Shown here: piece by piece, positions 4,878 to 28,495 of the stretch | Position numbering within the stretch: position 1 is the stretch's first letter | Layout of the letters: each line of letters begins with the position of its first letter | From: a virus | Direction: 5' to 3' (one strand) | IMG/VR virus record: IMGVR_UViG_3300030012_004560 | Location: 1,899 to 36,436 of that record | Length of the DNA: 34,538 nucleotides | The notes under the pieces: model-generated | What the model was told of the DNA's origin: nothing | Database searches by the model: none | The model's input: the letters and a program-made list of their open reading frames with translations, nothing else | Translations under genes and position numbers: made by a program

Positions 4878-6569
4878 TTACACCAAGTTGAGGTCGTGGA
4901 TGAATACCTTACCGTAGAAGTCTGGGCGAACCATCTTCTTCGCGTAACGTGTCATGATACCTTTTCTTGGAGTGAACGATACTGGATCGTATACAAGAGG
5001 AGTCATAATTAATGGGATGTATGGGGCAAATACAGCACCTGTTTCGAGGAACTGGTTACCTTTGTAACCCATTAAGATTACGTTTTCAGTCATGTATGGG
5101 TTCTTGTAAACAGTGTATCTAGAGTTAATAGCACCGATCTTCTGAACACCCATCGCGTACTTGTTAGAATCACCAGGTGAGTCAGCAGCGAATCCAGGAA
5201 TTGATTCGAGGATTGTGCTTACCTTTGGAGAAACTACCATGAAGTTAGCGCCACCGCGAAGAGTCTTCTGGTGGATAGTGTTGCTAACAGACTGGAGCTT
5301 AACACCTAAAGTCTGGAACCAAGACATCTTAGTGTAGTACTCGTTGTTAGTAGCAGCAGTTACAACACCAGTGTCAGAAGCTTCATCACCTACTTTTGCA
5401 CTCCAGTGATTTACAGTATCTGCGTTTCTAATCAACATATCGAGTAATTCGAGGTCGATTTCCATTGAAATATACTCAGAAAGAATAGACGTCAATTCCG
5501 CTTCAGCGTCAATGCTGTGGTAAGCATTAAGATCCTGAGCGAATTCTGGTGTCCACTGAGCCTTTAACTTACGAGTTTTCGCTGTAACAGTATCACTGTT
5601 TAGCTTAACGTCGATAGTTGGGATTTCAAGACCAGAAACTGCACCACCTGTGGTAGTATCAGTTGAATCTTCAAAATCACCTCTGTCGTCAAGGTTATCT
5701 GGGTTTTTCAAGTAACGAATTACCATAGCATCTTCATTAGCTAGGTCACCTGCTTTAGCATACATTTTAACAAAACCGTCACCAGCTGTAAAGGTGTTGA
5801 ATTGGCTAAAGTTAGTAACAGCATCACCACCAGCAGTTACAATTTCAAATGCTCTAACAGAATCTAAGTCAAGATCAGTCATTGAAGCTGTGTTGACTCT
5901 AACCTCAGCAACAGTTGTAATGTCACCAGCAGCACCCGCAGCTGAAGCAATGAATTCATCATCAAAATTTAAAGATGCAGAAGCACCAGCCTCTAAAGCT
6001 ACGAAAGAAGCTGAAACGTCAGTTAGTTCAGCGTGAGATGAAGTTAATAAATTTGAAGTTGATGTAGCTTCGTTAATAGAGTAACCAAAACGACCAGCAC
6101 CATAAAGACCGCTACCGGCACCATTTGCAGGAAGCACAGTTTTAGTTTTATCAGCTGATGCAGCGTATAAAGAATCACCTTTATCAAATTGGTTAAAGTT
6201 ATTACCATATTGGAAGTCTAGGTAAAAGATAAGGCCTGAAGGGAGGTTCATTGGCTGAACAGACACGAGGTCTTTAGCAACGATCTCACCAAATACTCTT
6301 CTAACGAGTGGAAGAGCAACACCTGCCCATGCTTCACTTTGGCCTGTAGTTACAGAAGTACCAGCACCAGAAGCACCTAACGAGTTAGCCTCGTTTACTA
6401 ATTGTCTAGCTTGGTTCTCAAGGAGAACAGCCATGTTTGCTTTTTCGCTCTCGTGGCCATTAAGACCTTCCAAGAGACCGGACTTTTCCCACTTACCCGC
6501 CAACTTAGCTGATTCAGCTTGTTGGTGTTGAAGTGGTGAAGCGCCCTCTAATAATGAGTTAACATTCAT
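4878..6569 (-). CDS. 23: Major capsid protein, T4 gp23-like
   Basis: This 563-residue protein builds the hexamers of the head shell. Clear gp23 hallmarks are VRRVFGEIVAKDLVSVQPMN at about 89-108, followed by the LPSGLIFYLDFQYG segment. The core block runs from KLKAQWTPEFAQDLNAYHS to LTSILSEYISMEID. A Ser/Ala/Asp-rich segment at roughly 130-310 sits where T4 gp23 carries its insertion domain. The first 60 residues look like the cleaved delta region: VNE|A at 58-61 is a good prohead-protease site and lies close to the known T4 cleavage point (after residue 65). The ATG is 11 nt after the gp22 stop, so the two are probably co-transcribed. A strong terminator follows. Residues 60-72 are identical to part of the 55-residue protein encoded at 8943-9110. 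Confidence 0.97.
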   Translation of the reverse strand: MNVNSLLEGASPLQHQQAESAKLAGKWEKSGLLEGLNGHESEKANMAVLLENQARQLVNEANSLGASGAGTSVTTGQSEAWAGVALPLVRRVFGEIVAKDLVSVQPMNLPSGLIFYLDFQYGNNFNQFDKGDSLYAASADKTKTVLPANGAGSGLYGAGRFGYSINEATSTSNLLTSSHAELTDVSASFVALEAGASASLNFDDEFIASAAGAAGDITTVAEVRVNTASMTDLDLDSVRAFEIVTAGGDAVTNFSQFNTFTAGDGFVKMYAKAGDLANEDAMVIRYLKNPDNLDDRGDFEDSTDTTTGGAVSGLEIPTIDVKLNSDTVTAKTRKLKAQWTPEFAQDLNAYHSIDAEAELTSILSEYISMEIDLELLDMLIRNADTVNHWSAKVGDEASDTGVVTAATNNEYYTKMSWFQTLGVKLQSVSNTIHQKTLRGGANFMVVSPKVSTILESIPGFAADSPGDSNKYAMGVQKIGAINSRYTVYKNPYMTENVILMGYKGNQFLETGAVFAPYIPLIMTPLVYDPVSFTPRKGIMTRYAKKMVRPDFYGKVFIHDLNLV

Positions 6570-6580
6570 GTTTTCTAAAA

Positions 6581-7795
6581 TTATTTGTTAATGTTTGCGA
6601 GTTTTTGGAATCTTGACACTGTTTCGTCAACGGATTCCGATAAAACCTTTTTAGGAGCAGTTCCGACGGGCTTTGAAGCGCGTGCTAAACCTTCCTTAAT
6701 TGCTCTCTTTTCTACACCTGTAAAGTTGAATGATTCTTGAAGTGTTTCAAATACCAATTTAGCTTCACTAGTTGTAGTAGCTTTGTCTAAGGCGTCAACC
6801 ACCTTAACTTTCTGTGCTTCGTTTAAAGCATTAGCTCTGAAGAGTTTGTTGCAGTAGAGAAGTTTGCTGTTTAAAAGGTTCATTTCAGAAATGGTTTCTT
6901 TAAGGGTAGAAACAGTTGCGAGTGCTTCATCACGCTCCTCTTTGAGTTGCTTGACGGCGCCATCGTATCCTGTGCTACCTTTTCCAGACTTACCATCGCC
7001 AAATGGAGCGCCAGGCTTACCTTTAGCAGGACCAGTGCCCTTGCCAGGTGAATCACCGTATGCTTCTTTGACTTCTTCTTCTTTACCATCGTCCTTTTTC
7101 TTCTTTTTACCTTCTTCGATTTCAGATTCGATTTCAGCAACAAGAGCATCGATGTCAAATGTTTCTTCAATACCTTCTTTTGGTAAATCAACGGCACCAG
7201 CAAAATCTTTCGCAAAGAAATCTTTTAAACCTTTACCTATACTACCACCGGCATCTTTGATTCTTTTTTGAACCTGGCTTTTACCACCAGCAGCCATAAA
7301 TTGACCACCTAATAGAGTACCAAATAGCCCTAATAAGACAGAAATAGATTCATTAAGGGGTTCTTCACCTTCCTTTTTCATGTCATCGTCTTCATCATAT
7401 GTCATACCTTCAGACTTTTCGTCTTCCTCATATGACATTTCTTCAAGCTCAGCCATGAGTTCATCAAGGTTGATTTCTTCATCGAGGTCTTCTTCAAGAC
7501 TAAATTCTTCCTTCATGTCCTCATCTTTTTCATCTTCGTCATAGGAACCTTCTTTCATGTCTTCGTCTTTTTCATCCTTCATGTAAGACATTTCTTTCAT
7601 GTCTTCGTCTTTTTCGTCTTCCATGTAGGTTTCTTCGAGTTCAACATCCTCTTCAATTTCTTCTGCTAATCTAGCAGAAAGCATTGATTTTAATTTAGAG
7701 TCAAACGCTTCTTCTAACGCCATTTTAGCGTTTTGCAAAGCGACTTCTCTAACAGCTTTCGCATCAGCGATTGCTTCTTTTAATAATTCAGCCAT
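6581..7795 (-). CDS. 22: Prohead core scaffold protein, gp22-like
   Basis: This 404-residue, highly charged protein is placed directly before gp23. The C-terminal third carries the block typical of T4-like scaffolds (LLNSKLLYCNKLFRANALNE at about 307-326, then KLVFETLQESF at 346-356). The N-terminal half is very acidic and contains three tandem 14-residue units with the core EKDEDMKE. A short hydrophobic stretch at about 150-169 and a Gly/Lys-rich linker at 250-275 follow. Candidate prohead-protease sites are LNE|S (147-150), IEE|G (226-229) and LSE|S (385-388), as expected for a core protein digested during maturation. It ends in SRFQKLANINK. It is longer than T4 gp22 (269 aa), mainly because of the acidic N-terminal region. 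The leader of about 120 nt is unusually long and folded. Confidence 0.88.
   Translation of the reverse strand: MAELLKEAIADAKAVREVALQNAKMALEEAFDSKLKSMLSARLAEEIEEDVELEETYMEDEKDEDMKEMSYMKDEKDEDMKEGSYDEDEKDEDMKEEFSLEEDLDEEINLDELMAELEEMSYEEDEKSEGMTYDEDDDMKKEGEEPLNESISVLLGLFGTLLGGQFMAAGGKSQVQKRIKDAGGSIGKGLKDFFAKDFAGAVDLPKEGIEETFDIDALVAEIESEIEEGKKKKKDDGKEEEVKEAYGDSPGKGTGPAKGKPGAPFGDGKSGKGSTGYDGAVKQLKEERDEALATVSTLKETISEMNLLNSKLLYCNKLFRANALNEAQKVKVVDALDKATTTSEAKLVFETLQESFNFTGVEKRAIKEGLARASKPVGTAPKKVLSESVDETVSRFQKLANINK
7502..7627 (-). repeat. Three 42-bp tandem repeats in the scaffold gene
   Basis: Residues 57-98 of the scaffold are three consecutive 14-residue units, each holding the core EKDEDMKE. 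This corresponds to three 42-bp units in the DNA. The first two units are almost identical, which suggests recent duplication. They add negative charge to the disordered N-terminal region. Confidence 0.8.
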
Positions 7796-7981: not shown

Positions 7982-8194
7982 ATGATGGATTTTATAAACG
8001 AAACATTTACATTAAACTTTTACCTAGGTTATCTATTAATAGGTACAGCTACATCATTTTTAATAGAAGCTGTAATTAGATGGTCTGGTCAAGAAGTTAA
8101 TGGAAGAGAAAGATTGTCTATGATTTGTGCGTGGCCAATAATGGCTACGGTTTTTATATACAATTTTGTAAAAGGATTACTAAATAATGATTAA
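7982..8194 (+). CDS. Small two-helix membrane protein (70 aa), opposite strand
   Basis: This is the only convincing plus-strand gene. The product has two hydrophobic segments, about residues 12-31 (FYLGYLLIGTATSFLIEAVI) and 45-66 (LSMICAWPIMATVFIYNFVK). A polar loop with RWSGQEVNGRER joins them. The start is ATG at 7982 or the next codon, ATG at 7985. Its end overlaps the end of the gp21 gene by 4 nt, tail to tail. It is inserted between gp21 and gp22 of an otherwise minus-strand operon and has its own possible promoter. Amphipathic and well-formed helices make a chance frame unlikely. Function is unknown; an inner-membrane role during infection is inferred. Confidence 0.65.
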   Translation: MMDFINETFTLNFYLGYLLIGTATSFLIEAVIRWSGQEVNGRERLSMICAWPIMATVFIYNFVKGLLNND

Positions 8195-8802
8195 CACTTA
8201 CACATACCTGTGTTATCACAAATAATATCACGGATAATATTGTGTACTTTAGTGTAATTAGCCATTGGGCGCTCTATACCCTCTTTTAACTGCTGTGGTG
8301 TTAATGTAGCACCAGGAGTAGATGGGGTAGACACTAAATCGAAGCATAGCAAATCAAAATCCTCTTGTACCATAAGTACACCGTCTGAATTTTCTTCTAC
8401 GGAACCCATTCCACGAGACGAAATGCCAACTGGTACACCTGCTTGGAATAATGATTTTGCTATGTTTCCTGCTGGGGTAGGTAGTATTTCGATCTGACCA
8501 TGTACGTCATTTCCATTCCACCAGCACTTATTAATTTTATGAGATACGTTATTTAAGTTAATAACAGATGAATCGGGGTGGTCTAGTTCGCCTAGTGCGT
8601 TATTTTCTTTAACTGGACCATCAATATATTTTGTCATTTCTCTTTCGAGAATTTGTCTTTCGTAGATACGGCCATTAGCGTTTTTAACACCTGCTCTTTG
8701 GATAATACCCTCTACAATAAGCGGGCCACCAGATTTCATTGACGATTCAACTAATAAACGGTCAACTTTTAATGGGATAATATCTACGATTAAGTTATTC
8801 AT
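8191..8802 (-). CDS. 21: Prohead core protease, gp21-like
   Basis: This 203-residue serine protease of the herpesvirus/T4 prohead protease type cuts scaffold, capsid precursor and internal proteins during head maturation. The family hallmarks are visible: GELDHP at 71-76 with the presumed catalytic His75, and GISSRG at 126-131 with the nucleophile Ser. The N-terminal block KNANGRIYERQIL (40-52) is typical of phage prohead proteases. A possible self-cleavage site LKE|G (172-175) precedes a C-terminal tail ending in the short Cys motif GMCKC. The start ATG overlaps the stop of the upstream 46-residue gene (ATGA), and AAGGA-like bases just before it could act as a weak ribosome site. The order gp20, gp21, gp22, gp23 is as in T4. 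Confidence 0.93.
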   Translation of the reverse strand: MNNLIVDIIPLKVDRLLVESSMKSGGPLIVEGIIQRAGVKNANGRIYERQILEREMTKYIDGPVKENNALGELDHPDSSVINLNNVSHKINKCWWNGNDVHGQIEILPTPAGNIAKSLFQAGVPVGISSRGMGSVEENSDGVLMVQEDFDLLCFDLVSTPSTPGATLTPQQLKEGIERPMANYTKVHNIIRDIICDNTGMCKC

Positions 8803-16200: not shown

Positions 16201-16725
16201 TTAAAATTGTATATATTTCATCATTTGATTAATTCGTTCTTCTGTTGAACCTTTCAATTCATAGTGAACAGGACGATATTTTGTTAAAAGTTTTTTAATT
16301 TCTTTATCTATTTCTTTTCGATACATAGTATCAGTTTCACGAACCCCGTTATCTTCCATTTTCATTCCTTCAGGAGAAATATAAAAAATATAATCATAAT
16401 CTTTAACAAACCGTGAAGCATATTCAGCAAATGCATCTCCATCAAGATAACTTACTTTTCTAGCACAATTTGTAAACGCCATAACATCAATAATTGTACG
16501 ATCAGTAATTAAACGATCTTGCATAAGTTCAGTTACACGTTCAGCTAAAAATATTGTTTGACCTTCAATAGTAGTTTCATGATTCAATGGAATACCCAAT
16601 GAATTAAGATACTTACTACGCTCAGTTGTAAATGTATAACCCTTAAATTGCTCTACTCGTTCAGAAAGAGCTTTAACTAGTGTTGTTTTACCAACACTCA
16701 TTGTTCCACAAAGTCCTATTTTCAT
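16201..16725 (-). CDS. NadR-type P-loop kinase (AAA_28-like), 174 aa
   Basis: This is a small P-loop NTPase with Walker A GTMSVGKT at 7-14. The segment DRLITDRTIIDVMAFT (about 70-85) is the second acidic block typical of the NadR kinase and AAA_28 group. A lid-like region with Arg (about 130-140, VRETDTMYRKE) follows. Members phosphorylate nicotinamide riboside or other small substrates; the substrate here cannot be read from sequence. It is coupled by TAATG to the upstream 98-residue gene and lies in a run with the FAD dehydrogenase. The separate 1121-residue protein carries an NMN adenylyltransferase-like domain, so a joint NAD salvage role is possible. Alternatives are a deoxynucleoside or polynucleotide kinase. 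Confidence 0.8.
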   Translation of the reverse strand: MKIGLCGTMSVGKTTLVKALSERVEQFKGYTFTTERSKYLNSLGIPLNHETTIEGQTIFLAERVTELMQDRLITDRTIIDVMAFTNCARKVSYLDGDAFAEYASRFVKDYDYIFYISPEGMKMEDNGVRETDTMYRKEIDKEIKKLLTKYRPVHYELKGSTEERINQMMKYIQF

Positions 16726-17023: not shown

Positions 17024-18400
17024 TTAAACTGTTAAACCACCAATATAATTTGCATCAGTAAGGTGGAAATATTTTGGGTTCATATCGTTTTTAGTTAAAA
17101 TTGTATCTGCAACATATGTTCCTTGTGCACCACTTACTGTAATACCTCTAGCTGAGAGAGCATCACCTACAAAGTGGACATTTGGAATTTCTTGAAGAGA
17201 TAAATCACCGTAATGTACGAGTGGTTCTGGTGCAAGATACTTAACTTCTGGCATATAAATACCCCAATCGTTACCTAATGTTGGGAATATTTTTTGCATA
17301 TCTTCAATAAAGTCAATAATATATGTTGCATTATCTCCAATAGCATCGTATAGAACATCTAAGCTATCTACGATTTCTGTTTTGACATAATCGCCTTCAC
17401 TTGTTTTAGATGGTACTCGCTTGCTAGGTGAGTAATAGGTTCCAGTACCATTAATTTGAAGTTTTTTAACAGCTTCACGTGACCAATCAAACGGCTTATT
17501 AATACCTCTAATTTCCATTAGAATACCAAAGTTAGTCATATCATTACGATATGCTTCGTCTTTTTTAGCGTGACCGTTATAGCTGTGATCGCCATATGTT
17601 TCTTCAACAGCAACAAATGCTGCATTATTATTTGTACAGAACGACCTAAGTGAAACACCTTTATCTTCAAATTTGCGATATAGTTTAAAATCATAGCTAA
17701 TATCGATTAACTTTTGGAAGTGTTTTTGTGGTGCCTCAAAACGTACACCAATTTGTACTGGTTTTGGTTCAGTAGGTTGATTATTAGTTTCAATTAAGTA
17801 TTTACCAAAATCAATACCTGATTTACCAACAGCAAAAATTAAGCGGTCGTATGATTCAATACCGTTAGCAGGACGAGGATTTTCTATATTGTTAAAAAAT
17901 GCTAAATTTCTTTCAAAGTCAATTTTATTAACTTTATGATTCCAAATAAACTTAACACCTTTAGAACGAAGATATTCGTACCAATTTTTACCAATCTCGT
18001 GCAAATAATCTGTTCCAATGTGCCATACAGGGAATAATCGTAAACCAAAATATGGTTTGATAAATTCTGGTTCTTCTACAGGATGAGAACACTGTATAAC
18101 TTCTGGTTTAGGATGGAATCGTCTAAAATTAGAAATTACTTCATCCATTAATTCCATTGCGCGTTCATCGCCACAATACTTTGACATATGACCACCGATA
18201 GATGTATGGTAAGTAAGTTTACCATCTGACCAACCACCAGCGCCCATAAAGCCTGTCATGACTTCTTCTGGCTTACGTTTATATGGGTCATTACCCATAT
18301 CAATAATGGTGATTTTTTCGCCAATATAACCATTATCAACTAATTTAGTTGCAGCGTTTACGCCCGCTACACCGGCTCCTATGATTAATATTTTTTCCAT
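17024..18400 (-). CDS. FAD-dependent dehydrogenase (COG2509-like), 458 aa
   Basis: The N-terminal Rossmann FAD site is clear: ILIIGAGVAGVNAA at 4-17. GAGGWSDGKLTYHTSIGGH at about 53-71 resembles the GGxxxxSDGKL motif of a family of uncharacterised FAD-dependent dehydrogenases. FAVGKSG near 190 and VHFVGDALSARGITVSGAQG near the C-terminus are the second nucleotide-binding and flavin-contact regions. The product is therefore a complete soluble flavoprotein oxidoreductase of normal size. The substrate is unknown. In a phage it would be an auxiliary metabolic gene. A strong terminator immediately upstream and an AT-rich box (GTATATTTAA, near 18417) suggest it begins an operon with the 98-residue protein and the kinase. 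Confidence 0.85.
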   Translation of the reverse strand: MEKILIIGAGVAGVNAATKLVDNGYIGEKITIIDMGNDPYKRKPEEVMTGFMGAGGWSDGKLTYHTSIGGHMSKYCGDERAMELMDEVISNFRRFHPKPEVIQCSHPVEEPEFIKPYFGLRLFPVWHIGTDYLHEIGKNWYEYLRSKGVKFIWNHKVNKIDFERNLAFFNNIENPRPANGIESYDRLIFAVGKSGIDFGKYLIETNNQPTEPKPVQIGVRFEAPQKHFQKLIDISYDFKLYRKFEDKGVSLRSFCTNNNAAFVAVEETYGDHSYNGHAKKDEAYRNDMTNFGILMEIRGINKPFDWSREAVKKLQINGTGTYYSPSKRVPSKTSEGDYVKTEIVDSLDVLYDAIGDNATYIIDFIEDMQKIFPTLGNDWGIYMPEVKYLAPEPLVHYGDLSLQEIPNVHFVGDALSARGITVSGAQGTYVADTILTKNDMNPKYFHLTDANYIGGLTV

Positions 18401-18519: not shown

Positions 18520-18915
18520 TTATTCTTGTTGGTACTTAAAATTATCTTCAAAATCTCTCATAAGCATATTACCTTCTAAATATGCTTCCATTTCCATTTT
18601 TCTTAAGTGGTCATCTTTTTGGGCATATTGGGGATCACTAGAATCGCCTAATTGTAAATCACCGCGTTCATTTTGTACATGGTGAATTAATTCATGAGCA
18701 AATGATCTAAGTATATCTTTAGGATGACGCCCTGTAATATATAGTACTATTTTTAGTTCAGAAGGATCATAAAATGCAGTTCTGCCTAAAGTCATAGCTC
18801 CATTCTCCCGATCTTGTCTAAGAACTAAGCTAGGGGTATTACGGATATTAAATTTTTTAACTGCATCTCTATAGATACCTGCCGCAGCTTGTTGGAATTT
18901 AGGATTATTATTCAT
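18520..18915 (-). CDS. Small zinc metallopeptidase-like protein (HELIHH), 131 aa
   Basis: The sequence has SFAHELIHHVQNERGDLQLG at 71-90, with the zinc-binding HExxH at 74-78. A Glu in MEMEAYLEGNML at 107-118 is a plausible third ligand. The fold is the minimal zincin type seen in many phage and bacterial proteins. It has no signal peptide, so it acts in the cytoplasm or inside the virion. The start overlaps the stop of the acidic 145-residue gene by one base (TAATG). It is the last gene before a strong terminator. The substrate is unknown; processing of head or host proteins is possible. The peptidase motif is solid, the activity is inferred. Confidence 0.82.
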   Translation of the reverse strand: MNNNPKFQQAAAGIYRDAVKKFNIRNTPSLVLRQDRENGAMTLGRTAFYDPSELKIVLYITGRHPKDILRSFAHELIHHVQNERGDLQLGDSSDPQYAQKDDHLRKMEMEAYLEGNMLMRDFEDNFKYQQE

Positions 18916-20773: not shown

Positions 20774-21640
20774 TTATTTAGTTTTGCCCCAAGTTTTTCC
20801 TTTACCTTTATCTTTACATTTTCCAGGTGTAGGTCGGCATGAGGGGTATTTTGCTCGTTTTTCACCTTTTTTTCTGCCACATGGCTTATATTCCATTCTA
20901 CCAGTTTTACGGTTTTTTCTACCTGTATTGCAGTCAACCCAACCGCCTGTTTTACCAGGAGCACCACGGCGTTTAAACCAAGTGCGTAATGTTTTTTTTT
21001 CTTTTTCGTCTAATTGTTCGTATGCTTCTTTAACACCTTTCCAAATATTACCTTTGCGGCATCTTACAACCGCTCCACTTTTATAGGCAGATGGTTTTTT
21101 AAATTTGCGGTCAGCAATACGAAGACATCTATCACGTTTCTTTTTTTTTCTATTTTGCGATGTTTTACCTCTTCTTTCTTCTAATTCAGATTGGCAAGCA
21201 TCACACCCACAACCCCCTTCATCTAAACTACTAACATTAAGTAATTCTATTACTTTATCTTTAAGTTCTTCTTTTCCTTGAGTATAAGCAGAATATAAGG
21301 TTTTTAAATGCTTTCTTGTAAATTCTGCACCAGCACCTACTTTACCATAAAACCTATCAATAGCAGGAGCTACATATTTGTCTGTTAGTTTGATTAATTG
21401 GTCAAATCCAACTTTTATCCCAACAGCCCCAAAAATTAATATTAAAGCTGATACAATAGGTTCTACTGTACCTAAATCGGCTTCAGCTATTTTTTTAGCT
21501 CTTTTAGTTGCAGTAGCATACATAACGGCTTCAGCATCTTTACCATAGCGTTTTTTAAAGTCAGCTTTAGCTCCCTTTAAATCTTTTACTATACGCTCTT
21601 TAGCTTTAGCTTCGGGTTTTGTTAGTTTGCGTTCTTGCAT
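20774..21640 (-). CDS. Basic Cys-containing phage protein with one membrane-like helix (288 aa)
   Basis: The N-terminal module (LTKPEAKAKERIVKDLKGAK, then AEAVMYATATKRAKKIAEAD) resembles a module I associate with marine phage proteins. It ends in IAE|A (51-54), the same tripeptide as the T4 gp23 cleavage site. A hydrophobic helix at about 61-79 follows, then a Cys cluster GGCGCDACQ (142-150) preceded by LDE|G. A basic block (RGKTSQNRKKKKRDRC) is next, and the C-terminal domain (about 215-275) holds RTWFKRRGAPGKTGGWVDCN with Cys at 237, 254, 268 and 275, likely zinc-binding. The start overlaps the end of the cupin-like gene by 35 nt. The function is unknown; a packaged or DNA-associated protein is inferred. 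Confidence 0.72.
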   Translation of the reverse strand: MQERKLTKPEAKAKERIVKDLKGAKADFKKRYGKDAEAVMYATATKRAKKIAEADLGTVEPIVSALILIFGAVGIKVGFDQLIKLTDKYVAPAIDRFYGKVGAGAEFTRKHLKTLYSAYTQGKEELKDKVIELLNVSSLDEGGCGCDACQSELEERRGKTSQNRKKKKRDRCLRIADRKFKKPSAYKSGAVVRCRKGNIWKGVKEAYEQLDEKEKKTLRTWFKRRGAPGKTGGWVDCNTGRKNRKTGRMEYKPCGRKKGEKRAKYPSCRPTPGKCKDKGKGKTWGKTK

Positions 21641-22001
21641 GTTTATATATACTGATCATTAAAGGACCGTCACCTTTTATAAGGCGATGCCATTGATGTC
21701 TCTCAATAAATATAGGCTTGTTTAAAGGAACGGGCAACTGATCTTCAAACTGAAATTGCCAATTTGTTTCGCCAAGAACTGTAATAACTCTATCCTCATC
21801 ATCCATATGCCACTTTAAATCTTTTGGTTTAGTCGAAGCAGAAAACAGACGACTTGTTGTGCCGTCTGATTCTATTATATCAGTATATGGTTTACCAGAA
21901 AGTTGAGGCAGGTGTTGCAAGACCCAATTGTTTATGGTATCTAGGAAGGTTGCAACTCCAGTAACTAGCTTTAGTCCTGTCTTTTTTATTCTTACAATCA
22001 T
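21606..22001 (-). CDS. Cupin-like small protein, start uncertain
   Basis: The core WHMDDEDRVITVLGETNWQF, then PIFIERHQWHRLIKGDG, has the alternating beta pattern and His/Glu residues of a single cupin barrel. Similar short proteins occur in T4-like phages, from memory. ATG at 22001 gives 131 residues but overlaps the end of the upstream gene by 110 nt in another frame. A TTG at 21920 would start at QHLPQLSGKPYTDIIES and overlap by only 29 nt. The C-terminus overlaps the start of the 288-residue gene. A metal-binding or sugar-binding role is possible. The ligand is unknown. Confidence 0.6.
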   Translation of the reverse strand: MIVRIKKTGLKLVTGVATFLDTINNWVLQHLPQLSGKPYTDIIESDGTTSRLFSASTKPKDLKWHMDDEDRVITVLGETNWQFQFEDQLPVPLNKPIFIERHQWHRLIKGDGPLMISIYKHARTQTNKTRS

Positions 22002-22512
22002 GTCTTTTTGCAAATGCTTGTGATGCTTTTTTATTTCCTAATTTTGCCTTTAATCCACCCGAACCAAATGTAACTTTTTTAATTTTTTTAGTTTTAGGGT
22101 TTCTTACATAAACATAGTAAGCTTTAGGACCCCCACGTTTTGGTTTATTCAATGGAGGATTTTTTTTCTTTTTCTTTTTATTTTCTTCAATATATGGTAA
22201 ATCTAATGGCACTAAGTTACCTTCATACATTCCTTGACGACCAGCATCTGTGTGCATAAAGTACTCGTCAGCTTCAGATAAAGTTATTTTACCAGTTTCC
22301 CAAAGTTCTCTAACTTCTTTAAATAATTTAACGTGAGCATTAGAGCTAATTCTAAATACTGATTCATTTAGGGGGATTTTGTTGTCTAGATGGTATTGTA
22401 GGTTTTCAGATACTTTAACCCCTTCATTAAGTTTAGTATCTTCACAATTACCACAACCACAATCGCACCCCCCGGGTTTTTTACCAAATAAAAGTTCTTT
22501 AAGCTTGATCAT
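21892..22512 (-). CDS. Phage protein with CDCGCGNC motif and basic C-terminal domain (206 aa)
   Basis: The ATG at 22512 (MIKLKELLFGKKPGGCDCGC) is preferred over a TTG at 22539 that lies inside the upstream gene. The Cys cluster CDCGCGNC sits at 16-23. Prohead-protease-like sites are LNE|G (28-31), LNE|S (48-51) and LSE|A further on. The middle has a Lys-rich stretch (ENKKKKKKNPPLNKPKRGGP). The C-terminal domain is conserved-looking: KAYYVYVRNPKTKKIKKVTF, then AFAKRHDCKNKKDRTKASYW and SCNLPRY, with two Cys that may bind metal. It overlaps the previous gene by 14 nt. I cannot assign a function. Cys-rich and basic features suggest a DNA- or metal-binding virion protein. Confidence 0.72.
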   Translation of the reverse strand: MIKLKELLFGKKPGGCDCGCGNCEDTKLNEGVKVSENLQYHLDNKIPLNESVFRISSNAHVKLFKEVRELWETGKITLSEADEYFMHTDAGRQGMYEGNLVPLDLPYIEENKKKKKKNPPLNKPKRGGPKAYYVYVRNPKTKKIKKVTFGSGGLKAKLGNKKASQAFAKRHDCKNKKDRTKASYWSCNLPRYHKQLGLATPASTFW

Positions 22513-23092
22513 CTGTTTTGTTTTGTTTGTAATCGTCAACTTGTTTTCTAAACTCAGCGAAATTAGTTGTCATTTGTTCAAGAAATTCTTCTTTATCAAT
22601 TCCTCCTTTCCAACGTTCAACTTCACCCCTTTCAGAAACATATTGAGTATTAGATTCATTAATTGCTTCTAATAAATATTGTTCAAGGTCATCTAAATAA
22701 GAACTAGCGTTATTTGCTATCATATTACGTTCATATTCTTCATATTTACCTTCAAGCTTTAATTTAGCTTCCATATCAATAACACAATTAAAACACATTT
22801 TATGTATTTTATACATTTGGGGATCATGTTGGTTTTTCATTAATGACCCACAGTTAGGGCAAAATAATGGTAAGATTGCTTCTTTTTTAACTTTATCAAG
22901 TTTAGTAGCAGTTTGTTTTATACCATTTTTGACAGTCCATTGTTTACCATTTTCTTCCCAAATGTCACCTTCTTTATGATCTTCTTTTTTAGAAGTAAAA
23001 CCAACTTGTGTTTCAGCGGACTCACCTGATTTACCTTTTACCAGATTTCTTATACGCTCAACATCTTTTCTTTTAAATTCTTTATTTAACAT
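22499..23092 (-). CDS. Zinc-ribbon phage protein (197 aa)
   Basis: ATG at 23092 (MLNKEFKRKDVERIRNLVKG); a GTG one codon earlier is possible. The zinc ribbon is CPNCGSLM (Cys78, Cys81) with CFNC (Cys100, Cys103), separated by a loop containing HDPQMYKIHKM. Helical regions before and after are highly charged (KLKLEGKYEEYERNMIANNA). An INE|S site (LLEAINESNTQY) lies in the C-terminal half. The pattern is like conserved proteins of T4-like marine phages (recalled, not checked). A role in DNA or RNA binding, or as a virion component, is plausible but unproven. A terminator stands directly upstream, so it probably begins a new transcription unit. Confidence 0.75.
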   Translation of the reverse strand: MLNKEFKRKDVERIRNLVKGKSGESAETQVGFTSKKEDHKEGDIWEENGKQWTVKNGIKQTATKLDKVKKEAILPLFCPNCGSLMKNQHDPQMYKIHKMCFNCVIDMEAKLKLEGKYEEYERNMIANNASSYLDDLEQYLLEAINESNTQYVSERGEVERWKGGIDKEEFLEQMTTNFAEFRKQVDDYKQNKTDDQA

Positions 23093-23434: not shown

Positions 23435-23734
23435 TTAACTTACGTCAAATTCACTGTATCTTAGATTAACTCCATATTTACTTAAAAATTCTTTAAGATT
23501 ACCACTGCTATACCCTATGGCTTTTAAAAATTCATCTAAACCGCTTTGCCCACCTGATAGATTAATTTGTCTATCTTCAGTAAATAAATATCCTCTATAA
23601 ACTCTATCGCTCATTCCTCTGGTAGCAATGTTAAGTTCTTTTAATGGTGAGCCATTTACTATAATCTGGTCGCCTACTTCAATAGAAATTCCACGACTAA
23701 TTTCAATTTCATTTAATAAATCTTTTAGTTTCAT
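23435..23734 (-). CDS. Small hypothetical protein coupled to the 1121-residue gene (99 aa)
   Basis: The start overlaps the stop of the large fusion gene by 4 nt (ATGA). It begins with an amphipathic helix MKLKDLLNEIEISRG that includes LNE|I, similar to the short helices at the start of other proteins here. The rest is a small soluble domain of mixed structure (VGDQIIVNGSPLKELN, then LDEFLKAIGYSSGNLKEFLS). No catalytic residues can be proposed. It ends a transcription unit before the promoter box at 23409. The role is unknown. Confidence 0.65.
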   Translation of the reverse strand: MKLKDLLNEIEISRGISIEVGDQIIVNGSPLKELNIATRGMSDRVYRGYLFTEDRQINLSGGQSGLDEFLKAIGYSSGNLKEFLSKYGVNLRYSEFDVS

Positions 23735-26700
23735 TTTTTCTGGAAATCTGAGGATACACCTCCGGTTATAAATTTACCTGTAATTTTAAATGGACGAGGG
23801 GAAATTTTATCGTCACGTATAACTACACCTTCATGGTCATTTACTGAACCCATTGGTGAATCAAGTACGTCTAATATAGCGTCACCTAATTTTTCTGTTG
23901 CAAGGTATGTTGTAGCACCTTGAATAGCTTTTTGGACTTCTTGCTCATCACTAAATAATGAATCTACATTTTCGCCACCAAATACAGCAAAATACACTTG
24001 TTTACTTAATGCACCTACGTCTTTTATTGAATCAGTTTCTTCAATATTCATTTTTAAACGATCTGTTTTGGGGATATTAGTAACGTCGTTTAACCAAGAG
24101 GCAAGTGATTTGGTTTTACTACCCTCAGCAAAATCAATAGTGTAGGTTTGACCTAAAGCAGCTTTAAAGTCTGGGTCTTTTGTAAATGTTGTTGGAACTG
24201 AACCATAAATTTCAAATCCTTTCTTTTTAGCGAATGGCTCTAATTTTTTAAGTAACTCATCCATATCACTTTGTGCAAATTGCTTTTCAGATGTAATACG
24301 TTTTGTAAGCATCTTACGAGCTCCTTGCACTTCTTTAGTTTCTACACTTAATAAACCGTGAATTGCTAAGAAATTTTTACCATAGTCTTGAACATTTGAT
24401 TTACCACTAACATATTCCATATTAAACATAATGTTAGGGTCGTCATATAAACCAAGTGCCGTTAATTCTTCCTGAATCGTAGGTAAGGCGGCGTTAAATA
24501 TATCTAATACATCGCCACCAGCTTTAATCATACCGTGACCAGCGCCAAATCTATCTTCTAGGTCAGCTTTAGTAACGCCACGTAAATCGAGTGCCTTTTT
24601 TGATCCGCGATCCATGGCGAACTCGCGTTTTCCTGCGTTATTTATTAATCTAATTGACGCATTTACGCCGTCTATCTTAACACTACCTGGTGCTTTTTTT
24701 AAACTATCCGCAGCTTGTTCAAATGATTTAATTAGGTCTTTACCTGTTTTAACATTTTCTAAATCAAATGGGTGTGCCATGTGTCCAGCGGCTCCACCTT
24801 CATTTAGTATTTCTTCAGTGATTATATCTAACCACCATTCTTGTGAGAACAATCCTTCTTTTCTCATTCTTTGTGTTTTTCTTTTTGATGCTTCTTTACG
24901 TTTTTTAATATACTCAAAAGCAGAACGTAATCGTTTTTTTACAGCAGGGTCTTTAGCCCTAGATAATGCTGCTCTAACTCGTTGGTGAATTAAATTAATA
25001 ATTTGTGATTGACGAGCATGAGATTTAGCTTTAAATGATTTTTTAGATAAAGTATCTACTATATCTTGTCTGGTACTAAATTTAACTTTTACAGTATCTC
25101 TAGGATTTTCGTCAGTGTATAAACGCCTGCCAGATCCTTTAGGTTTTTTACCTGTACCTACTTTAGGGTCACCTTCATTTACGTTAGTAGTAGTTTTTAG
25201 AGTTTTAGCTAGTGTAAGTGCTTTATAATATTTTTGGTTTTTAGCACTTCGCTTTTCCATCTTTTTAAGACGCGCAATCTCTTTATTAATTAATGATAAA
25301 GGTATTTTTTCGCCTTTAGGAATACGAAGCCTTTTTCTAACTGTGCCCTGTTTTAAATTGCCTGCTTTTTTACCTTTAGCGGCCATTTTTTCATAAGTGT
25401 CACCTTCGTCTACATTTTTCTTTGATTTACGGATAAGACTAAATTTAGGTAATTTTTTACCTTTATATTCACCATCCATTTCAAAGTTACGTACTGTATA
25501 TCGTTTACCGTCTTGGTCTTCTACAGATAATTTATAACGATTAACACCCTCTCTAGAGTTTTTAATTACTTTTACTATTTTAGATTTATCTAATTTTTTA
25601 CCTCCTAATGGGAATCCCTTAGGAGCTCGTAAAACATCACCAGGAAGTATTTGTCCACTATAATTAGATAAATCAATACTAATTTCTTCTATTTTATCAT
25701 CTTCTAAATAGCCTAACTTTTTAGCTCTTTTAGGATCATTTGTAAATGTATCACTTGCTCTATATCTGGTTTGTTGAACTTGATTCGCCTTATAAGGTGG
25801 ATAATTTTCATCTAATTGAGCATCTGGAAGATTCAATCTAGCCCAATTAAGCCACACATTTCTTACTTGATTTATTTCTTCTGGGTTATTAAAACTTTCT
25901 TCATACTCTTCAAAGAATTCATCAAATGTATCTACAAGAGACATTTTTTTTACTTTAGCGCGCTTATATAAACCCCTAACAAATGCCGGAATTTCGTGTG
26001 TTAGTTGAAGGTATTTATAAAAATCTATTTTACCTTTATATTGTTCAAAACCACCTTTAAGCTCAAACCCAAATTGGGTTATATGCTCTATTTCGTGGCG
26101 CAATGTTTCTTTTAATTCTGCGTTAAAGTTATTAAATTCTGTAGGGAATGAACCGGGATTATAAGTTATTTCGATTTCGATATCTTCATCATCTGCTGAA
26201 GCATCGAAACTAAATCCGGGAATATCTGTGTTTGGAATAAATTCTACTGTGACTTCATATTCTAATACAACTTCGCCCCCTTCAATATATCCTTCTATTT
26301 CTCCTGCTTCAAACGGCTTTCCGAGATTTTGCTTAAAAAGTTCAAATATTTCCCTAGATAGAAATTGGACTTCACTTTCAATTGTTCCTCTTTGGATTCC
26401 AAATTTTTCATATAATTTTCTTCTTAATCCCTTAGTGTATTTACGAGGGATTTGTGTCCATTGGTTGCCTTGTTTATCTAAAAACTTTCTAAGGCGTTTC
26501 ATATTTTTATTATGTTTTTCCATTTCCTGTTTATTCATAGTACCACCCATAAATTCTTGCACAGGCATAGTAGTATCAACTAATTTAGTCCAAATTTCTT
26601 CTTTAATTTCTTCAGGAAGATAATCGGGAATATATTTAAAAAACGTAGCTTTATCGTTTGATTTAATTATTTCACGCATGCGAGTACCTGAAATACCCCC

Positions 26701-27096
26701 CGCTTGTGGTGGGACTAGTTCAATTTCTGCTTTAATATTGCGTGGTTCTGCAAATTTGGGGATACTGTTGTAACGACCATCAGATGCATCTTTTTCGCCT
26801 AACCCTAAAATAACTGTTGATCCTTCAGGAGCGACTTCTTCTACAAAATCGTATACATCTTTAACAGGAGACGGCGATTGTGCAACACTAATTGTTAGTT
26901 TTTTAGCACGAGAATCTGAATCAAATTCTTTATAAAAATTCCAAACTTCAAGAGCTAACGGAGCTCCTATACCCTCTCTTTCTTTTTGCCCAATTCGAAC
27001 TATAACATTATCTGCGAAATCTGCAAGGTATTTCGCCATATTATAATGTCCTAGGTGAGGTGGTTTAAATCCACCAGGTAAAAGGGCTATTTTCAT
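23731..27096 (-). CDS. Fusion: NMN adenylyltransferase-like, HExxH peptidase-like and ligase-like domains (1121 aa)
   Basis: Domain 1 (about 1-170) is a cytidylyltransferase-fold enzyme with GGFKPPHLGH at 8-17 and ISGTRMR at 135-141, the pattern of NMN adenylyltransferases such as NadM and NadR. Domain 2 (about 190-420) has LRHEIEHITQ with HExxH at 334-338 and HEIPAF at 367-372, a likely zincin. Residues 450-760 are very basic and low in complexity. Domain 3 (767-1121) begins GGAAGHMAHPFD and has KIDG at 807-810 (nucleotidyl-lysine motif I of ATP- or NAD-dependent ligases), EGVVIR at 1089-1094 (motif IV) and FKITGKF at 1103-1109 (motif V). Cleavage-like sites VDE|G (562-565), VNE|G (639-642) and LNE|G (764-767) fall at the linker borders, so a polyprotein is possible. 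Activities are inferred from motifs. Confidence 0.85.
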   Translation of the reverse strand: MKIALLPGGFKPPHLGHYNMAKYLADFADNVIVRIGQKEREGIGAPLALEVWNFYKEFDSDSRAKKLTISVAQSPSPVKDVYDFVEEVAPEGSTVILGLGEKDASDGRYNSIPKFAEPRNIKAEIELVPPQAGGISGTRMREIIKSNDKATFFKYIPDYLPEEIKEEIWTKLVDTTMPVQEFMGGTMNKQEMEKHNKNMKRLRKFLDKQGNQWTQIPRKYTKGLRRKLYEKFGIQRGTIESEVQFLSREIFELFKQNLGKPFEAGEIEGYIEGGEVVLEYEVTVEFIPNTDIPGFSFDASADDEDIEIEITYNPGSFPTEFNNFNAELKETLRHEIEHITQFGFELKGGFEQYKGKIDFYKYLQLTHEIPAFVRGLYKRAKVKKMSLVDTFDEFFEEYEESFNNPEEINQVRNVWLNWARLNLPDAQLDENYPPYKANQVQQTRYRASDTFTNDPKRAKKLGYLEDDKIEEISIDLSNYSGQILPGDVLRAPKGFPLGGKKLDKSKIVKVIKNSREGVNRYKLSVEDQDGKRYTVRNFEMDGEYKGKKLPKFSLIRKSKKNVDEGDTYEKMAAKGKKAGNLKQGTVRKRLRIPKGEKIPLSLINKEIARLKKMEKRSAKNQKYYKALTLAKTLKTTTNVNEGDPKVGTGKKPKGSGRRLYTDENPRDTVKVKFSTRQDIVDTLSKKSFKAKSHARQSQIINLIHQRVRAALSRAKDPAVKKRLRSAFEYIKKRKEASKRKTQRMRKEGLFSQEWWLDIITEEILNEGGAAGHMAHPFDLENVKTGKDLIKSFEQAADSLKKAPGSVKIDGVNASIRLINNAGKREFAMDRGSKKALDLRGVTKADLEDRFGAGHGMIKAGGDVLDIFNAALPTIQEELTALGLYDDPNIMFNMEYVSGKSNVQDYGKNFLAIHGLLSVETKEVQGARKMLTKRITSEKQFAQSDMDELLKKLEPFAKKKGFEIYGSVPTTFTKDPDFKAALGQTYTIDFAEGSKTKSLASWLNDVTNIPKTDRLKMNIEETDSIKDVGALSKQVYFAVFGGENVDSLFSDEQEVQKAIQGATTYLATEKLGDAILDVLDSPMGSVNDHEGVVIRDDKISPRPFKITGKFITGGVSSDFQKK

Positions 27097-28069: not shown

Positions 28070-28495
28070 TTAAAAGCCAAAATCTTTTTTGAAATATCTT
28101 CCTTCAATATTATCGTTTAAGTAATCTTCGGTTTCTAACACACCCATGCTAAAAAGTGCTTTATTTTCTAAATAAGTTAATTCTTTTTTAGAATATGCTA
28201 GTTGCAAAATTATACGCTCAAAATCAGCTTGGTTGCCATTTTTAATTTCATCCTTAATAAATTGATGAGAACCATAATAGGTTTTCCAATCGCTTTCTTT
28301 TTGAATTTGCTTGTAAACTGGTGGTCTTCCTTTACCTTCCCACAGTGCTAATTCACGTTTACCAATTTTTTTCTTTTGGTTGTATATTAACGATTTTTTG
28401 CCAATATATTTTTTTCCAGTAGGTAAGTGGGTTGTTTGGTAAACATATCCATATGTGCCTTCTGGGAATTGTTCATAACTTTCTGGTATTATCAT
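28070..28495 (-). CDS. GIY-YIG-like nuclease (141 aa)
   Basis: The N-terminus has GYVYQTTHLPTGKKYIGKKS at 16-35, the GIY-YIG signature with the first tyrosine replaced in part (GYVY) and the second KYIG intact. A Glu at 110 in KKELTYLENKAL is a likely catalytic metal ligand. The middle contains DWKTYYGSHQFIKDEIKNG. No DNA-binding zinc finger or other extension is seen, so it is a stand-alone catalytic domain. Such genes in T4-like phages are often free-standing homing endonucleases (Seg-like), but small GIY-YIG proteins also act in repair or exclusion. Its ATG overlaps the stop of the 1890-residue gene by 4 nt, so it is coupled to a structural gene, which is unusual for a recent mobile insertion. 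Confidence 0.78.
   Translation of the reverse strand: MIIPESYEQFPEGTYGYVYQTTHLPTGKKYIGKKSLIYNQKKKIGKRELALWEGKGRPPVYKQIQKESDWKTYYGSHQFIKDEIKNGNQADFERIILQLAYSKKELTYLENKALFSMGVLETEDYLNDNIEGRYFKKDFGF

Follow-up and report, generated by a model that had tools for sequence, protein, structure and literature searches.

The window analysed here is a whole 34.5-kb stretch of an 81.5-kb virus record in IMG/VR (IMGVR_UViG_3300030012_004560). The minus strand carries its main genes, which make up a T4-like head block with a T4-type terminase and a match to the T4 portal gp20 (2.7e-66). The gene of interest, P0001 (23731..27096), is an open ATG frame of 1121 amino acids read on the minus strand from 27096 to 23731; a DnaG-like primase is encoded directly upstream, and relatives of P0001 are encoded at 79 IMG/VR loci. 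An earlier reading of the same DNA (the original prediction) had placed here, without naming a strand, a 1121-residue chain joining nicotinamide mononucleotide (NMN) adenylyltransferase (NMNAT)-like, zincin-like and ligase-like modules, and both the frame and its multi-enzyme make-up are borne out. We propose that P0001 is probably a capsid-packaged, prohead protease-processed, combinatorial cargo polyprotein of this T4-like marine virus.

The chain opens with module 1 (residues 1-181; 26554..27096, minus strand, as for all features of the gene), a nucleotidyltransferase of the NMNAT/phosphopantetheine adenylyltransferase (PPAT) superfamily. It carries GGFKPPHLGH (GGFKPPH14-L-G16-H17) and SGTRMR (S136-G-T138-x-x-R141), matches phrog_395 (4e-8) and, in a PDB profile search, matches solved PPAT, nicotinate mononucleotide adenylyltransferase and NMNAT structures; a direct PDB search with P0001 gave no match. 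Residues G16, H17, G137 and R141 are invariant in a 27-sequence alignment of the module. The (H/T)xGH and SxTxxR motifs of the superfamily are thus kept, and the HxGH-type residues are not lost in relatives, a divergent clade showing only replacement of the first His by Thr (TxGH). The original prediction was narrower, naming an NadM/NadR-type NMN adenylyltransferase. While its superfamily assignment holds, the NMN specificity does not follow, as module 1 missed all NCBIfam NMNAT equivalog cut-offs (best NMNAT model 22.9 bits versus 127) and the PPAT model scored it about as well as the best NMNAT model. No NCBIfam equivalog cut-off was reached. The module ends at a predicted cleavage site, VQE181↓F (26551..26562; ↓ marks the putative cut), where the E181 column is at least 90% conserved and relatives show hydrophobic-x-Glu (hxE).

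After a short basic peptide that is a separate recurrent segment (module 2, residues 182-230; 26407..26553; isoelectric point (pI) 10.6; ending LYE230) comes module 3 (residues 231-430; 25807..26406; ending LDE430), which is zincin-like. The HExxH zincin of the original prediction is present as H334-E-I-E-H338, within RHExEH, and this motif and a downstream Glu are invariant in a 19-sequence alignment; HExxH with a Glu in the next helix is the motif of zincin-like metallopeptidases. The AlphaFold2 model (predicted local distance difference test score (pLDDT) 83) has the predicted order helix, strands, HExxH helix and another helix, which resembles the description of the zincins of polyvalent proteins (PMC5512222). 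A PDB fold search with this model returned no convincing zincin, the best rows being unrelated and an HtpX domain reaching Z 3.5, and the modelled fold is weak evidence for the assignment. A small separate gene at 18520-18915 of the window encodes a HELIHH zincin-like protein, a kind of zincin that related polyproteins contain as one of their modules.

The basic middle region that had been described is confirmed between the zincin and the ligase. It is preceded by module 4 (residues 431-471; 25684..25806), a NYPPYKANQVQQTRYRASDTFTNDPKKAKKLGYLE peptide that ends IEE471 and recurs in different contexts. Module 5 (residues 472-564; 25405..25683) is basic and ends VDE564↓G; module 6 (residues 565-641; 25174..25404), basic module A (GDTYEKMAAKG), ends VNE641↓G and is also found in separate genes; module 7 (residues 642-747; 24856..25173) is basic module B (GDPKxGTGKKPKG) and is 54% identical to a protein of Pelagibacter phage HTVC033P. 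Net charges are +10, +16 and +18 for residues 472-564, 565-641 and 642-766 (pI 9.9-10.6). Residues 748-766 (24799..24855) form a leader-like peptide, GLFSQEWWLDIITEEILNE, with a cut site at E766↓G. A similar peptide precedes the ligase in marine relatives, some of which keep an initial Met (MKLFSKEWW..). The three sites proposed originally, E564, E641 and E766, each precede Gly and sit at true module boundaries, and further likely sites are E181, E230, E430 and E471. The (F/L)(S/T)KxWW peptide recurs before the ligase in marine polyproteins and before other modules in loci L120 and L125. Among the retrieved loci this peptide occurred internally 57 distinct times and at a gene start 0 times, so the FSKxWW leader was not found as an N-terminal targeting peptide of separate genes; possibly the peptide is an internal targeting signal.

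The C-terminal module 8 (residues 767-1121; 23734..24798) is a KxDG RNA ligase-like nucleotidyltransferase. Its putative nucleotidylated Lys807 (codon 24676..24678) lies in SVKIDGVN, at column 41 of the ligase alignment, and is invariant in 28 sequences; EGVVIR and a motif V-like FKITGKF follow the expectation of a ligase with motifs I, IV and V. KxDG is present in 111 of 112 ligase-module sequences, the catalytic Lys therefore not being lost in relatives, and motif IV in 103 of 104, as fits the RNA ligase/covalent nucleotidyltransferase superfamily. Solved-structure matches of the AlphaFold2 model (pLDDT 88) were mostly RNA and DNA ligases, with T4 RNA ligase 1 at the top (VIA Z 8.4, 176 residues, root-mean-square deviation 4.0; Foldseek E-values were weak), and we take the modelled fold as moderate evidence. 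Module 8 shares KxDG, motif IV and the motif V-like element with T4 RNA ligase 1 and other KxDG ligases, but is only ~15% identical and remains below the Pfam RNA_ligase (PF09414) gathering cut-off (16.7 bits versus 27), sub-threshold matches occurring in 15 of 28 family members. When the ligase alignment was used for a PDB profile search, the matches were unrelated and at chance level. In the cellular genome collection the family is almost absent: it gave two fragmentary matches, in a Flavobacteriales bin and a Halieaceae bin, both assembled from metagenomes. DUF6267 stands in the ligase's C-terminal position in some marine polyproteins, and in L042, L046, L049, L052 and L073 it is a C-terminal module that bears KWDG. 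A stand-alone DUF6267-like KWDG protein with the leader MYNDLLVE↓D is encoded near the NMNAT gene of Pelagibacter phage HTVC008M (L087, 3547-4779). The motif match of DUF6267 is suggestive only, and homology with the ligase is not claimed (BLASTP E 0.12; hhalign probability 0.7 on a 0-100 scale).

The number of E↓G sites within P0001 was dropped as evidence, being at chance level, and for that reason module borders were located independently, by comparing relatives. The comparison set held 54 sequences (P0001 and 53 relatives, many of the records being fragments). A border was placed wherever a pairwise BLAST match between two chains began or stopped. After reduction to 181 dissimilar junctions, the motif was sought within 4 residues of each, and positions drawn at random from the same proteins (500 draws) served as the control. 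An hxE motif was found at 88 of 181 junctions against 25.3 +/- 4.7 expected, and 0 of 500 draws gave as high a number; junctions share ancestry, which de-replication lessens and does not remove. No enrichment was seen in the same test for D, K, N, Q, S or G at the residue before the cut (P1), nor for Glu with a non-hydrophobic P3. At the best-supported junctions the proportion with hxE was 72%. When five module families were followed through 65 unrelated upstream contexts, P1 was Glu in 61 and the full hxE was present in 56. For the modules behind E564, E641 and E766 the hxE counts were 17/19 (with Glu in 19/19), 14/17 and 15/16 distinct contexts respectively (together 46/52), and hxE also closes the 5/5 distinct upstream contexts examined for module 5. 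Before the ligase, P2 and P3 vary (LNE, LTE, INE, LKE, LSE, LME, LAE, LRE). Only the last residues agree between the upstream contexts, and given the variation at P2 and P3 the consensus looks as if it was kept by selection and not by copying.

A protease suited to such sites is encoded by the same virus. T4-type prohead proteases cleave C-terminal to a Glu that follows a short motif (PMC9026906), and the head block includes a prohead protease of the S77/T4 gp21 family (8191..8802, minus strand; Pfam Peptidase_S77 4e-33; phrog_207 4e-53), which is presumed to be the processing enzyme for P0001. The motif also occurs in two other proteins of the head block. In the major capsid protein gp23 (4878..6569, minus strand; Pfam Gp23 5.5e-79) LVNE60↓A, of the same type as the module borders, aligns at E60-A61 with FLTE65↓A66 of T4 gp23, whose propeptide is 65 residues (PMC5694885). 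The protein in the scaffold position (6581..7795, minus strand), for which Pfam and PHROG searches found no family match, contains 10 hxE[GAS] motifs against 3.5 expected (p=0.004), as expected of a degraded core protein. Among 21 relatives' records, mostly fragments, 6 contained an S77 protease.

The same motif closes N-terminal leaders. That of T4 ipII/ipIII is MKTYQEFIAE↓A, and cyanophage NMNAT homologues begin MKSFLQFLKE↓A, MRFRQFIIE↓A and MKRYTNFLSE↓A. Leaders of stand-alone ligase genes (L037, L159) end INE↓GG and LAE↓GG, and divergent polyproteins carry short leaders such as MNHLTRSLLE↓G. NMNAT-like proteins have been detected by mass spectrometry in virions of S-SCSM1 (PMC9602691), S-SZBM1 (PMC9146016) and S-CREM2 (PMC10665884), and in S-SCSM1 the genes flanking NMNAT on both sides are also annotated as virion proteins. 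Packaging, as the original prediction had it, is well supported indirectly by the homologues in cyanophage virions. For the related Flavobacterium immuto phages, no published proteomics was found among the papers searched. Beside the NMNAT gene of cyanophage S-CREM1 (L083, 4930-7281) lies a gene for a 784-amino-acid basic protein with many hxE↓G/A/S sites and a repeated AEGSYGxTPKA, which may be another processed packaged polyprotein.

The shuffling and replacement of modules between viruses is the larger point, and it was absent from the original prediction. Throughout the 54 sequences no enzyme module precedes the NMNAT, and the other modules are permuted, lost or replaced: basic module B stands before module A in many relatives, and L032 has the ligase and then GNAT and zincin modules. 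The ligase comes ahead of the NMNAT in L169 and in the contig from the Flavobacteriales bin. Replacement modules comprise Fe/Mn superoxide dismutase, plastocyanin-type cupredoxin, SET, GNAT, HAD-like, DUF192, DUF6973 and DUF6267 (2e-94) domains, and certain modules are also encoded as separate neighbouring genes. The superoxide dismutase module occupies residues 338-550 of the L021 polyprotein (Sod_Fe_N 7e-20; Sod_Fe_C 1.5e-29), with a segment of L062 in the same cluster; plastocyanin/azurin-type cupredoxin modules occur in the polyproteins of L023 (PF00127 3.8e-17), L021, L028, L052, L064 and L073, and SET-domain modules in those of L018 (6.5e-9) and L030. When loci were sought by the ligase alone, 60 of 66 five-prime-complete ligase genes also held an NMNAT, and two of the six scored as lacking it (L131, L158) contain NMNAT-like sequence that the pattern missed; this hints at a functional pair. 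Fusions of ~560 amino acids in L119, L134, L140 and L148 join a GRFQPFGxHH NMNAT-like module to the same ligase with hxE↓GG between, and are perhaps the minimal form.

Module identities, shuffling, the border motif, the encoded protease and the retained catalytic residues are computational results; the following sequence of events is what we infer for this virus. The P0001 chain would be built into the prohead core and cut by the gp21/S77-type protease after hxE at module borders, freeing the NMNAT-type nucleotidyltransferase, the zincin, the RNA ligase-like enzyme and a number of small basic proteins, the last of which would remain on the packaged genome. The set would reach the host cell together with the DNA, which would enable the enzymes to act ahead of viral gene expression. 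The NMNAT most likely would supply NAD or a related dinucleotide, and the ligase most likely would seal broken RNA or nicked nucleic acid. Since relatives reorder and replace modules between cut sites, the gene would work as a cargo-exchange cassette. Phage NAD reconstitution pathways and the T4 Pnkp/Rnl1 system are precedents, and by analogy with them restoration of NAD against NAD-depleting defences and sealing of cleaved tRNA would be plausible candidate roles. A more specific arrangement, which we consider unlikely, is that the two enzymes are a co-delivered pair in which nicotinamide nucleotides are consumed or set free by the ligase (as in a ligase fuelled by NAD) and the NMNAT recycles NMN and ATP to NAD, making a self-sufficient end-repair unit for the incoming genome, the chain also being a general exchangeable cassette that delivers superoxide dismutase, cupredoxin, SET or other enzymes in sister viruses.

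Several observations weigh against a packaged and processed polyprotein. In P0001 alone hxE[GAS] motifs number 4 against 4.8 expected (p=0.70), the figures for [LIV][ND]E being 4 and 2.0 (p=0.13), and about half of the junction peaks, mainly weakly supported ones, are without hxE. P0001 begins directly with the NMNAT and, like 42 others of the 54 sequences, lacks the T4-type N-terminal leader of 10-20 residues ending in hxE; candidate targeting signals are the NMNAT and the leader-like peptide that stands internally, ahead of the ligase. The virion proteomics comes from cyanophage homologues, and the authors of the cyanophage proteomes say that virion NMNAT could be carry-over (PMC10665884, PMC9602691). 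Lastly, no enzyme specificity follows from the sequence. The absent capsid-targeting peptide, together with the DnaG-like primase as the next gene upstream, would suit a multidomain early enzyme of auxiliary metabolism or repair that is made after infection and never cleaved, hxE then marking a linker preference or a recombination hot spot. We think this improbable, as linker preference poorly explains a strict Glu at P1 with a variable P2 over unrelated contexts, the gene sits in the head block, and homologues with T4-like leaders are found in virions.

Another explanation is self-cleavage of the chain by the zincin module that it contains, given that most relatives contain an HExxH module and that zincin processing has been proposed for polyvalent proteins and P1 DdrB (PMC5512222). 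Such autoproteolysis seems quite improbable, because the 15 of 54 polyproteins without any HExxH retain hxE junctions (24/55 against 7.5 expected) and because the motif is of gp21 type and recurs in two head-block proteins of this virus, gp23 and the one in the scaffold position. Finally, the enzyme-like modules could be dead relics within a structural or core scaffold-like protein that serves head assembly or DNA condensation; basic modules do prevail in the middle of the chain, and IPIII, an internal protein of T4, takes part in assembly (PMC9026906). The retention of catalytic residues (KxDG and motif IV at the frequencies given above, HxGH/TxGH, SGTxxR, and HExxH with its Glu) makes this very improbable indeed.

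On the preferred interpretation of a processed cargo polyprotein, the P0001 type stands between the T4 internal head proteins and the polyvalent proteins. With the former (Alt, IPI, IPII, IPIII) it shares the gp21-type border motif, a gp21-family protease in the same virus and the T4-like head block, and delivery of cargo with the DNA is likewise inferred; in T4, however, each gene encodes a single cargo behind a short N-terminal leader, whereas P0001 holds many cargoes in one chain with internal sites. Like the polyvalent proteins (Iyer et al., 2017; PMC5512222), P0001 is a large viral chain of several disparate enzymatic domains, in that class often including a zincin and predicted to be delivered with the DNA. 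Processing of polyvalent proteins is ascribed to zincins or C-terminal assemblin-like domains (PMC5512222), whereas the borders of P0001 fit a separate gp21-type protease, and the set of NMNAT with KxDG ligase, superoxide dismutase and cupredoxin is unlike the domains noted from that paper. The cyanophage NMNAT/cytidylyltransferase virion protein (phrog_395; S-SCSM1 ORF91, S-SZBM1_140, S-CREM2 ORF154) has a related head domain, an hxE↓A leader and a place in virions, but at ~360-410 amino acids (two sequences) it consists of the NMNAT and a short C-terminal part and is no long shuffled polyprotein. The plan of P0001 is shared by the 907-amino-acid NadR-annotated protein of a cultured relative, phage immuto. 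It is encoded, like P0001, between primase and terminase, and hxE↓G or hxE↓A sites lie between its NMNAT and two zincin-like modules; it differs in having a Pol-beta-type nucleotidyltransferase first and no ligase, and in being annotated as a single enzyme.

If this interpretation is correct, T4-like marine and freshwater viruses would carry a combinatorial protein payload, each with its own ready-made enzyme set at DNA entry, and the recurrent finding of NMNAT in cyanophage virions would be explained. The role of gp21 would change from maturation protease to cargo-releasing protease, hxE at module borders would be a simple rule for finding packaged effectors in uncultured viruses, and enzymes not otherwise expected in virions, for instance superoxide dismutase and a plastocyanin-like cupredoxin, would be predicted there.

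Other genes of the window include two for highly basic proteins (20774-21640 and 21892-22539; DUF5872-like and phrog_7595) with the sites IAE↓A and LNE↓G, which are possibly further packaged proteins. A PADLOC search gave no match. An AAA_28 P-loop protein is encoded at 16201-16725 (8.5e-13); with only 13.9 bits to TIGR01526, it is not claimed as an NadR kinase partner. The head block also encodes an FAD/NAD(P)-dependent oxidoreductase-like protein (17024-18400), and near the primase lies a gene for a SegE-like GIY-YIG endonuclease (28070-28495; 3e-23).

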